Source of the DNA: a virus
DNA length: 62,033 bases
Virus record (IMG/VR): IMGVR_UViG_3300043777_000073
Span: 1 to 62,033 of that record
Direction: 5' to 3' (one strand)
Below are positions 11,244 to 19,889 of this stretch, one piece after another. The notes under the pieces were generated by a model, which was not told where the DNA came from, did not search any database, and worked only from the letters and a program-made list of their open reading frames with translations. Each line of letters opens with the position of its first letter. The first letter of the stretch is position 1. Position numbers and translations under genes: made by a program.

Positions 11244-11338
11244 ACGTACGATGTCCGACTAGGCGCTTCCGGGCTAGGCAGTGCACGTCAACGTTCGGTG
11301 ACGCAAGGCAAGGGCCCTTCGGGGCGTAGGAGCGAACG

Positions 11339-12404: not shown

Positions 12405-13223
12405 ATGGCATTCGGAAAAAAGAAGGTCGAGATCAACTACAATCAAGCCAATGTCGCGATGCTCGCGGCGGATGCACTCAAGAAGTCTAGAGCGGTGCGT
12501 GTCCGCCTGGCACTGCGGCTGACGTTCGATACGCCGCTTCTCATGCAGCGGTGGACGACGAAAGCGGTGCGGCAGATGCTCGGGAAGATGGTGGGCATGC
12601 CCGAGCCGAAGGTCTCGAAGGATCTAACGAAAGACTTCGAGGAGTCGTACTACCGGAACACGAACGGCGAGCCGGTTATCCCGTGCCGCGTCATCAAGGC
12701 GGCAATCGTCTCCGGGGCCATCGCAACGGGAGATGTCGTCACGAAGGCGGACCTCAAGCGAAGCTTGCGGGTCATCGGCTGGACGGCCCCAGTCGTGTTC
12801 AAAGGCGCGAAGACCATGAGCACCATGATCGTTCGCAACAGCGGCGGCCAGCCTGACGTTCGTGCACGCGCGGAGTTCCCTGTCGGTTCAACCGTCGACA
12901 TCCTTGTCGAGTTTGGCGTGCCGCTCACGCCGGACAAGGTGATGGCCGCCATCGAAGCCTCAGGCGTCGCTATCGGCATTGGCGAGTGGCGACCTGAGAA
13001 CGGCGGCGAGCTTGGGACGTTCCACGTCGACATCTTGAAGAACGACAAGGCGGCGCACGACCGAATCATCAAGGCGACGAGCGTGCCGGAGGACGAGTTC
13101 GTGATTCCGCCCGAGATGCTTCGGACGCTGGAGAGCATTCCAGTGGAGAAGCTAAGCGACTCCGCGCGCAAGGTTCGGTCGTTGGCGGATCACATCGGAA
13201 AGCAGAAAAGAACCGGGACTTGA
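12405..13223 (+). CDS. PLLMxR-family protein, locus 1 (possible RAMP-like nucleic-acid binder)
   Basis: 272 residues; AGGAGGG precedes ATG 12405. Marked motifs are TPLLMQR at 43-49, EPVIPCRVIKAAIVSGA near 89-105, RARAEFP near 153 and a Gly-rich IGIGEWRPENGGELGTF at 190-206. The protein at 18792 has the same four blocks (SPLLMNR; KPMLPGENLMACLIAAG; RPRFD; VGLCDFRPARKGVFGKF), so the two are homologous although distant. Similar proteins occur in other phages without a known job. The C-terminal Gly-rich segment recalls the loop of RAMP proteins such as Cas7, but that is inference. A ribbon-helix-helix gene and a 5-nt-phased array follow directly. Confidence 0.8.
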   Translation: MAFGKKKVEINYNQANVAMLAADALKKSRAVRVRLALRLTFDTPLLMQRWTTKAVRQMLGKMVGMPEPKVSKDLTKDFEESYYRNTNGEPVIPCRVIKAAIVSGAIATGDVVTKADLKRSLRVIGWTAPVVFKGAKTMSTMIVRNSGGQPDVRARAEFPVGSTVDILVEFGVPLTPDKVMAAIEASGVAIGIGEWRPENGGELGTFHVDILKNDKAAHDRIIKATSVPEDEFVIPPEMLRTLESIPVEKLSDSARKVRSLADHIGKQKRTGT

Positions 13224-13224
13224 A

Positions 13225-13473
13225 ATGACTCGAGACAAGCAGATCAATTTCCGCGTTTCCGAGGACGAGGCGGCCCGATTCGATCGTGTCGCCGAGCACT
13301 ATGGGCTGGCGATGGCAGCGATGATTCGGATGCTCGTGAAGGAGAAGGGACGATACCATACGGGGACGTCGAGGCAGGCATGGTCTCCACCGGATTGGAG
13401 CGGCAAGGACGGGTTAGGCATGGCAGGCAAGGTTTCCACCGGATCGGAAAGTCCAGCACCGGCATCGGACTAA
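13225..13473 (+). CDS. Ribbon-helix-helix protein, locus 1
   Basis: 82 residues, one base after the previous stop. Residues 5-42 are a CopG/Arc-type RHH: QINFRVSEDEAARF, then DRVAEHYGLAMAAMIRMLVK. The first strand and two helices are complete. From about residue 50 the sequence changes to low-complexity Gly/Ser/Lys, which is simply the translation of the downstream pentamer array, so the natural end may have been near 46. It could bind operators or the array DNA. Confidence 0.75.
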   Translation: MTRDKQINFRVSEDEAARFDRVAEHYGLAMAAMIRMLVKEKGRYHTGTSRQAWSPPDWSGKDGLGMAGKVSTGSESPAPASD

Positions 13474-13758
13474 ACTCCGAACGCATAGGAAGTCAACGGC
13501 TTGGCGAGGCAGGAGTGTCTAGGAGCGGCTTCGTGGGTTCACGAACGGATGGGACCGGCGTGGCAAGGCAGGCAAGGCAGCGATCGAATCGGCGTCGCAT
13601 GGATTGGATCGGCACGTAGGGGTCAGGTATGGCAGGAACGGATAGGATAGGCGCGGATAGGATACGGAATGGATTGGCAAGGCAGGCGTCGATTGAAGCG
13701 TAGAGGATAGGAGCGGCACGTATCGGTCATCACCTGATTGGACCGGCATGGCAGGCAC
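13373..13758 (+). repeat. Degenerate 5-nt-phased GGNNN array, locus 1
   Basis: About 55 GG dinucleotides occur in 386 nt. Successive GG starts lie mostly 5 nt apart, or 10, 15 or 20 where a unit is degenerate; for example 13635, 640, 645, 650, 655, 660, 666, 671, 676, 681. All steps of 4 are GGCAGG. Common units are GGCAA, GGCAT, GGATT, GGATA and GGATC. G is enriched on the coding strand. The part after 13473 is non-coding. It is not a CRISPR array, since there are no constant repeats. Confidence 0.85.
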
Positions 13759-13780
13759 TGAAAACATGTAGGAGGACAAC

Positions 13781-17733: not shown

Positions 17734-17930
17734 ATGACGTTCAGCTCGTGTGCACATGCGGTCGGCACTTCTACCACTACGCCACCAAGGCGTACGTCGC
17801 GCGCCTGTCCTCGGGCCTTGTCGTGCTCAAGCCTCACTCGTGGCCGCCGTGCGTGCAGAAGCTCGACGCCGAGCGGCTCGAGCGCGCCGAGGAGATCACG
17901 CGAGACGATCTGCCCGCGGTGCTCAAGTGA
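17730..17930 (+). CDS. Small Cys-containing protein
   Basis: 66 residues from GTG 17730 (GTGA overlap with terL). CTCGRHFYHY and a later CVQKL could form half a zinc ribbon. Unknown. Confidence 0.55.
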   Translation: MNDVQLVCTCGRHFYHYATKAYVARLSSGLVVLKPHSWPPCVQKLDAERLERAEEITRDDLPAVLK

Positions 17931-18436
17931 GCAACCTCGCGCCGTACTCGCCGCAGTTCCGTGTCCGAACGGATGCGTGGGGAAAAGATGAGACGAAGCC
18001 GGCGACCCCCGTGGTCGCGAGGCAGCCGGTCATAGATTGGATCAGGGCGAACGCGCCGGACCTTCGGCTTGGAAAACTCGCCAGCTGTGAGCATTGGAAC
18101 GAGACTGAGAAACGCAGCGAGCGCTTCGAGCATCGCCGCTGCATTGCGGCGTTCACATTCGACGGAGAGCGTTTCAACCTGGTCTCGTGCGCTGGCGTAG
18201 CCGAGGATCCAGACGATCACGTCATCCGACTTTGCGAGGATGCGCTGCGCAAGGCGATGAAGATCGAGGCCGCCCAGGGCCGGCCGCGTGAGCCCGGACT
18301 CGAGCAGCAGGTCATCGAAGCGGAACTCCAAGGCGACGCTTCCGAAGTGGCCAGACTGACGCAGCTTCTCATCGGCGGCCAACCCCGCGATCCAGATCGG
18401 TTTCGACCGATACCAATTCGACAGCGACAAGTGTGA
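17927..18436 (+). CDS. Hypothetical 169-residue protein
   Basis: GTG 17927 (GTGA overlap). Mixed alpha/beta, with CEHWNETEKRSERFEHRRC in the middle and a charged helical end (EQQVIEAELQGDASEVARLT). Last gene of this rightward run before the minus-strand cassette. No family recognised. Confidence 0.6.
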   Translation: MSNLAPYSPQFRVRTDAWGKDETKPATPVVARQPVIDWIRANAPDLRLGKLASCEHWNETEKRSERFEHRRCIAAFTFDGERFNLVSCAGVAEDPDDHVIRLCEDALRKAMKIEAAQGRPREPGLEQQVIEAELQGDASEVARLTQLLIGGQPRDPDRFRPIPIRQRQV

Positions 18437-18467
18437 AAACTAGAAGGCCCCAGCCCATCGCTGGGCC
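18437..18467 (-). terminator. Intrinsic terminator for the minus-strand cassette
   Basis: Reading the minus strand: stem GGCCCAGC (18467-18460), loop, and GCTGGGGCC with one bulged base, followed by TTCTAGTTTT. The stem is 8 bp. It would end the transcript that starts at 19674-19702, after the array. Confidence 0.65.
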
Positions 18468-18479
18468 AGGGCCGTCTCC

Positions 18480-18791
18480 TTGCATCACGTCGCGCTACCA
18501 CGCTCAGCAGAGCACTGGCATAGGACGCAGGACCGTGCCACACGAGAACCAGCCACGCCGTGCGCGACCCCGCGCTGCCGGAGCTTGCGCCTGATTGATA
18601 GTTCCCGCCCGAGCCTTCCGACGCGAACGGGAATCCTTGGATTGCATTGCCTGGCCGGACCCGACGACGGCCCAGGGCGCAAGGCCGCACGCGGCGTCGA
18701 CCCGCCACGCAGTGCCGAACCTCGGATGGCATCTCATTGCCGAGCGCCGCGAAACGACACCTGGCGAAGCCCGGCACAGCGCTGCCCTAAT
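18480..18791 (-). repeat. Degenerate 5-nt-phased array, locus 2
   Basis: Between the stop of the PLLMxR gene and the terminator there is no gene. On the minus strand the sequence divides into pentamers that mostly start with G (for example GCAGC GCTGT GCCGG; later GCCAG GCAAT GCAAT). GG starts seen as CC on the plus strand at 18635, 650, 655, 660, 685, 705, 715, 720, 740, 760, 770 and 785 are all in one 5-nt phase. Nearer 18500-18580 the phase shifts once and continues. More degenerate than locus 1, but with the same strand and position relative to the gene. Confidence 0.7.
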
Positions 18792-19409
18792 TTATTCAGC
18801 CGCCGCCGAATGCTCGACGCGGTCCCACCGCTCGACGACGAACTTCCCGAAGACCCCCTTGCGGGCAGGGCGAAAGTCGCAGAGGCCGACTCGTTTCCCA
18901 GCGAGGTCCCATAGCTGCCGGATCGTATTCTCGCCGATCTCGGCATCGTCTAGTTCGATGCGTACGTGGAACGCCCAGCGGTCAAACCGAGGGCGCACGA
19001 TGCAGACCGCTTCGTTGCCGTTCGGGTTGACCCCCTTACGGACGTCGGGCTCCCAGGCGACCGCCTTTTTATCGTTGTCGGGGTCAACGAGCGGCAGCGC
19101 GAAATCCAGCATCGACATGAGTCCCGGCAGGATGGTCGACTTGCCAGTGCTGATCTGCCGCTTCGCGTCGAGGCGCACGAACACGCCTGCCGCAATGAGG
19201 CACGCCATCAGATTCTCACCGGGCAGCATCGGCTTCCCGTCGTGCAAATATAGCTTCGGCTCCGCATCTTCGCGCGGCGTGCGGACATGTCCAATGTCCT
19301 TCGCCTTTGGCTCCTTGACCTTCGTCCTAAGTTTTTCGAGGACGTTGTCACCGACTCGGTTCATGAGTAGTGGCGACGTTCCTCTGCACTTCACTCGAAT
19401 CAACAACAT
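18792..19409 (-). CDS. PLLMxR-family protein, locus 2
   Basis: 205 residues; a GGAGAAGG ribosome site precedes ATG 19409. Blocks: SPLLMNR (12-18), KPMLPGENLMACLIAAG (59-75), QISTGKSTILPGLMSMLDFA, NGNEAVCIVRPRFDRW and the final VGLCDFRPARKGVFGKF (174-190). It is shorter than the locus 1 homologue, which has about 30 extra residues at the N-terminus. Metagenomic phage proteins with this pattern are unannotated. The glycine-rich end with RP and FG resembles nucleic-acid-binding loops, which is inference. Confidence 0.8.
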   Translation of the reverse strand: MLLIRVKCRGTSPLLMNRVGDNVLEKLRTKVKEPKAKDIGHVRTPREDAEPKLYLHDGKPMLPGENLMACLIAAGVFVRLDAKRQISTGKSTILPGLMSMLDFALPLVDPDNDKKAVAWEPDVRKGVNPNGNEAVCIVRPRFDRWAFHVRIELDDAEIGENTIRQLWDLAGKRVGLCDFRPARKGVFGKFVVERWDRVEHSAAAE

Positions 19410-19490
19410 GACGAGCCCTTCTCCCCATATTTCGGGGTGCCGTGGATAACGATGCGCTGAACTACAATGCCAAGCCGTGCGAAGGCTGGC

Positions 19491-19667
19491 CTACTCGTCT
19501 TTGACTTTTCCCTCCCCATGCCGCCTCCGATACTCCGCACGGACCATCCGTCGGAGCACGTCGGCCTTCTCAGTGCCGTCGATATCCGCCAGTAACGCCA
19601 GCATTCGCGTCTCATCCGTGGAAAGACAGAGCGTGAATCTGAAGGGGCGGCGGGCGATGCGAGGCAT
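19491..19667 (-). CDS. Small ribbon-helix-helix-like protein, locus 2 (leaderless)
   Basis: 58 residues, MPRIARRPFRFTLCLSTDET onward, then LALLADIDGTEKADVLRRMV. The strand FTLCLS, the helix TDETRMLALLADI and the helix KADVLRRMVRAEYRR follow the CopG/Arc RHH pattern and match the locus 1 protein in layout. ATG 19667 is 6 nt from the -10 element and has no ribosome site. It is the first gene of the cassette and lies 81 nt before the PLLMxR gene. Probable autoregulator. Confidence 0.65.
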   Translation of the reverse strand: MPRIARRPFRFTLCLSTDETRMLALLADIDGTEKADVLRRMVRAEYRRRHGEGKVKDE

Positions 19668-19673
19668 GCGGAT

Positions 19674-19702
19674 TAGCTACGCCAACACATGCGGACAGTC
19701 AA
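19674..19702 (-). promoter_or_regulatory. Promoter of the minus-strand cassette, leaderless
   Basis: Minus strand: TTGACT, 17 nt, TAGCTA, then ATCCGC and ATG. Spacer and gap to the ATG equal those of the promoters at 4094 and 6603. Confidence 0.65.
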
Positions 19703-19712
19703 CGGAAAAGAG

Positions 19713-19889
19713 ATGAAACAGCAAGACAAGCCGGCGCCATCGCGCAGGCCACGACATGGCACGCGTCGCGGACCGGCCCCCGAGGTCATCATCCGGCCGC
19801 GCCGGCACTACACGGGCGCGACGGGAGCGAGCATCGGGGACCTTCCCGAGCGCGCCGAGTTCGATCGCGGGAGCCGCGTCATCAAGTGA
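19713..19889 (+). CDS. Hypothetical basic 58-residue protein
   Basis: ATG 19713 with GGAAAAGAG upstream; ATG 19689 is an alternative. Arg/Pro-rich (PSRRPRHGTRRGPAPEVIIR), probably mostly disordered. It begins a new rightward run and overlaps the next start as GTGA. Confidence 0.5.
   Translation: MKQQDKPAPSRRPRHGTRRGPAPEVIIRPRRHYTGATGASIGDLPERAEFDRGSRVIK

Follow-up and report, generated by a model that had tools for sequence, protein, structure and literature searches.

A phage cassette resembling VIPR, with a candidate guide against the neighbouring gene of related phages

The window analysed here is the whole 62,033-nucleotide stretch of the IMG/VR virus record IMGVR_UViG_3300043777_000073. 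On its minus strand, amid rightward genes, lie a 58-aa ORF, a 205-aa ORF referred to as PLLMxR, a noncoding stretch and a terminator-like hairpin, in the order that the preliminary description had proposed (locus 2; Table 1). About 320 noncoding bases separate the stop codon of the 205-aa ORF from the terminator hairpin. The terminator itself was recovered by a terminator scan, with a hairpin stem at 18473-18446 of 12 pairs, 9 of them GC, followed by the tail TTCTAGTTTT; it folds at -28.8 kcal/mol (z -4.8), and 0 of 200 shuffles were as good; taken as a class, such sites are no scarcer there than expected by chance (2 versus 1.4). The genes, the array and the terminator of the preliminary description stand; its leaderless promoter and its RHH label for the 58-aa ORF are unconfirmed, and the expression in a lysogen that it envisages is conjecture. 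A sigma-70 scan gave 0 sites versus 0.3 expected. By eye, TTGACT-N19-GCTAAT precedes the ATG of the 58-aa ORF with an unusual spacing; a TTGAC-type pattern was found once in the window versus 1.1 expected, located elsewhere, and the promoter type of the host may differ. The argument for a leaderless start is one of geometry only. As for the RHH label, the 58-aa ORF matched no Pfam family up to E 10, and phrog_25943 at E 0.073.

Table 1. Positions of the features of locus 2, its flanking genes and the second locus in the window.
Feature	Position	Strand	Basis
Gene X (left flank)	17926..18436	+	frame of ORF 17750-18436; start approximate
Terminator hairpin and T-rich tail, also 3' tail of tract B	18436..18473	-	fold, terminator scan
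vrRNA-like tract B, ~22 pentads	18478..18588	-	LL 30.9; 16/16 target match
Hairpin tail of tract A	18598..18637	-	-20.9 kcal/mol, z -3.25
vrRNA-like tract A, ~30 pentads (G)GY-NN	18635..18789	-	LL 42.0
vipr ("PLLMxR" gene), 205 aa, start MLLIRVKCRGTSPLLMNR	18792..19409	-	ORF, stop TAA; phrog_4652
Tentative short tract C, between 58-aa ORF and vipr	19438..19492	-	LL 17.1
58-aa ORF, possible accessory (vap) gene	19491..19667	-	ORF list; RHH by eye only
Gene Y (right flank)	19713..19889	+	ATGA overlap with gene X in L073/L076
Second putative VIPR locus (locus 1)	12405-13764	+	phrog_4652; pentad array
Locus 1 vipr, 272 aa	12405-13223	+	phrog_4652, E 2e-13
Locus 1 RHH-like ORF	from 13225	+	ORF
Locus 1 pentad array	13376-13764	+	LLR 75 vs null maximum -2.4

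The 205-aa protein matches phrog_4652 with an E-value of 1.8e-20. A profile of the Vipr family, built from 36 members, finds the PDB entry 36pp ("SUSP1 Vipr protein") at E 5.5e-80, whereas a search with the locus-2 protein by itself gives E 0.16 for that entry, below significance. Its AlphaFold2 model (pLDDT 75.6) resembles Csm3/Cas7 chains (Foldseek 3.3e-6; VIA Z 12.1, rmsd 3.6, 165 aligned). The PLLMxR protein is a divergent Vipr, for which the model predicts a Cas7/Csm3-like RAMP fold. Pfam, NCBIfam and PADLOC returned nothing significant for the 36 Vipr members, the weak Cas5/Cas6 matches (NCBIfam, PADLOC) being confined to single members, and no close relatives of the locus-2 Vipr were found in viral or genome contigs. 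In the preliminary description, both the system (Vipr plus vrRNA) and its target had gone unrecognised.

Our literature search returned a single source for VIPR, a 2026 preprint, which describes phage RAMP proteins acting with vrRNAs, small RNAs of 9-16 YNNGG units plus a structured 3' tail (PMC13142463). DNA is read through the NN letters with one base skipped, pairing that a published test demonstrates, and the system is used against competing phages (PMC13142463).

The array proposed in the preliminary description exists: a 5-state model gives an LLR of 41.1, whereas 200 retrained dinucleotide shuffles average -19.1 and never exceed -2.5, and bases recur at lags of 5, 10 and 15 (z 3.9, 4.4 and 3.0). 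In the pentad consensus the first G stands at 0.44, the second at 0.77 and Y at 0.95, ahead of the two variable positions NN. The array splits around a hairpin into tracts A and B, both of which score above the 23.8 that was the most reached in 20 shuffled windows. Both tracts end in AAGG and are then followed by a hairpin that beats 200 of 200 shuffles; for the tail of tract A, none of the 200 folded as well. Because the opposite strand scores the same under the 5-state model (40.9), periodicity alone cannot give the strand, which we take instead from the gene, the hairpin tails and the terminator. Tract C and a further tract D are each below significance in LL when taken alone, and shuffles fold as well as their tails do. 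Ordinary repeat finders missed the array and reported only short chance pairs in the locus, without any family of direct repeats; Rfam matched neither the window nor any of 15 relative loci. One could also read the stretch as a minus-strand protein-coding gene in which the period is an effect of composition, since an ORF at 18777-18217 is open; with a strong period of 5 and a period of 3 lacking (z -1.0 at lag 3 and -1.9 at lag 9), we find this scarcely credible.

With its Vipr-family protein, its GGY/NN-type tracts and, for tract B, a target readable under a 1-nt skip, locus 2 looks like a member of VIPR, a known kind of system, as judged from sequence. It has in common with the type II VIPR of phage SUSP1 a phage Vipr-family RAMP protein with adjacent pentad tracts that carry structured 3' tails, a target readable by a 1-nt skip at wobble positions, and a rival phage as the apparent target. 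It differs in the length of its tracts (~30 and ~22 units rather than the published 9-16), in the weak first G, in a tail that doubles as terminator, and in a target gene that adjoins the insertion site. The predicted RAMP fold is shared with Class 1 CRISPR-Cas (Csm3/Cas7), but locus 2 has period-5 tracts in place of CRISPR-type repeats, and a single small protein. The preliminary description would make the array an untranslated 3' end of the mRNA or an RNA that is processed, which agrees with the published vrRNAs.

We scored a locus as positive when a period-5 signal within 1 kb of vipr exceeded each of 40 shuffles. By this measure all 14 named phage loci and 53 of 56 IMG/VR loci were positive, versus 0/14 and 0/55 control regions (one IMG/VR locus was without a control region); much of the set consists of near-identical loci, which are hence not independent. 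Among 7 Felix-like phages in which vipr and the next gene are 94.9-99.3% identical, conservation extends to the hairpins but not to the NN letters, which differ wholesale, or to the number of blocks. TRAP sites also have a triplet-plus-two layout with a period of 5, which the tracts recall, and the arrays might then be protein-binding RNA only, a TRAP-like decoy or scaffold whose variable letters have no guide role. We dropped this reading, which we consider very unlikely, on the strength of the fold search and the VIPR preprint: the predicted fold is Csm3/Cas7-like, NN pairing was demonstrated in the published test (PMC13142463), the NN letters turn over beside conserved hairpins in the Felix-like phages, and one tract decodes to a 16/16 target, described below.

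The phage L073, whose terminase is 82% identical to that of the window, aligns with the window on both flanks of locus 2 and lacks the stretch from 18437 to ~19712. In L073 and in a second relative, L076, the end of gene X and the start of gene Y share one ATGA, with nothing between them. This presence of the cassette versus an empty X/Y junction backs the earlier proposal of a self-contained, inverted moron, and the comparison supports a probable insertion of locus 2 between two genes near the terminase. Like phage morons, the locus is an inverted cassette with a terminator, and kin lack it at the corresponding junction of two genes; it differs from morons in that the cargo would be an RNA-guided system, and in that a private promoter is unconfirmed. 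A search of the whole 90.9-kb L073 record found no Vipr, but the controls of that search also gave no signal; portal relatives in genome contigs and a further search for kin gave nothing.

When decoded with a 1-nt skip, units 12-19 of tract B match L073 at 16 of 16 letters, on the minus strand from 10535 downward, at a site inside gene X and ~60 bases from the insertion point. None of 300 unit-shuffled guides reach 16/16, while 3 reach 15; other skips give 14, 13 and 13, and the observed 18/20 is reached by 0 of 400 random guides. Allowing up to 3 mismatches, the pattern has a single site in five whole records, and its reversed control has 0. A search of IMG/VR for the 16-base pattern gave 13 stretches, L073 among them; the other 12 show little extension of the match into the flanks and are without gene X. 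In gene X of L073, which reads L-T-Q-E-L-M-T-G at this site, the NN letters pair with codon positions 1-2 and the wobble base is skipped. The window's own copy has L-T-Q-L-L-I-G-G there and matches at only 12/16, with two units wholly mismatched, because two of the eight codons read differ; L076 matches at 13/16 and L077 at 10/16. The putative VIPR cassette thus adjoins the gene that it would target in kin, here in the form of its own altered copy.

No target in kin was found under the 1-nt skip for tracts A, C and D or for locus 1, and no self-targets were found in the window under skip 1; skip-3 matches in the window were rejected as self-targets, being the arrays themselves. Under skip 0, tract A matches the portal region at 18/20 in both the window and L073, which exceeds its nulls. 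We set this match aside, since skip 0 differs from the VIPR rule, and regard it as a warning about near-matches. The core of tract A occurs in 3 stretches of IMG/VR, with no extension into the flanks and none with gene X.

That a single tract finds a target, together with a first G of only 0.44 and the tract lengths, might indicate a decaying VIPR, in which the tracts are former guides, the weak first G and over-long tracts are signs of decay, and the match to gene X is a relic or a coincidence. We believe this to be improbable, as the Vipr frame and the hairpins are intact, and the 16/16 match keeps codon register and adjoins the insertion site. Instead, locus 2 is very probably a VIPR cassette inserted as a moron, with guide B reading gene X of cassette-free kin. 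Some points do count against a VIPR assignment: the over-long tracts, the weak first G, the E-value of the locus-2 protein alone against 36pp, the match that the window's own gene X still retains, the decoding of only tract B to a target, the skip-0 match of tract A, and a promoter and accessory gene that are both unconfirmed.

For locus 2 we infer the following course of transcription, processing, complex formation, repression and self-sparing. A single transcript would span the putative accessory ORF, vipr and the vrRNA tracts; Vipr would bind the vrRNAs, each made of pentads and a hairpin tail, after their release; and double-stranded DNA would be read by their NN pairs under the 1-nt skip, with repression of the target as the outcome. 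In closely related phages without the cassette, gene X would be read by guide B, while the carrier's gene X would be spared by its difference in two of the eight codons read.

New here is a decoded target next door to the insertion site, which suggests, from sequence comparison, a weapon in linkage with an escaped allele of its own target. We tentatively speculate, at somewhat less than even chance, that the cassette is a homing-like, self-linked weapon: an RNA-guided repressor that sits beside the target gene of sister phages, so that weapon and escaped allele, with its two changed codons, are co-inherited and co-recombined. If this is true, the carrier would be protected and cassette-free kin penalised. 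The match to L073 is an independent, database-only success of the VIPR 1-nt skip code in another phage lineage, and its location in gene X of a sister phage suggests that viruses use VIPR against their own kin. It also suggests a self/non-self rule, by which a cassette and the carrier's altered copy of the target are in physical linkage; should such linkage hold in other phages, it would explain how the weapon spreads without harm to its carrier.

Two VIPR loci appear to be present in the window, and their Viprs belong to different clades. L073 has neither locus at the corresponding position; in place of the 3.2 kb with locus 1 it has ~235 bases. In a tree of 23 Viprs, locus 1 groups with the Viprs of the actinophages UmaThurman, Ecliptus, ODay and Quico (100/99 support); locus 2 lies outside the actinophage group on a long branch, and its place is unsure. 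Recurring 4-base GGCA units in the locus 1 array may mark vrRNA boundaries. A possible solitary vrRNA lies at 11249-11330 on the plus strand, with ~12 pentads (LL 18.9, below significance alone) that end in CGCAAGGCAAGG and are followed by a small GCCCTTCGGGGC hairpin.

The arrays of relatives show further features. On both sides of vipr in the Felix-like phages (L063-L069), whole guide blocks are swapped between conserved hairpins, and one guide block is nearly unchanged in both L063 and L066. The arrays by vipr in the Gordonia phages UmaThurman (L006, 4595-4918), Pipp (L010, 4581-4850) and Trine (L004, 4585-5388) overlap CDSs annotated as "hypothetical protein", which may be spurious genes. 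Vibrio-type arrays (L005, 4592-4836; L015, 3586-3928) are of the form GCA/NN rather than GGY/NN, with a GGGGTAAAACTCAA motif before each block. In mycobacteriophage arrays (L013, 4149-4512; L014, 2816-3000), the guide blocks are separated by stretches of GGTTCGAxTCC, which we take to resemble a tRNA T-arm.
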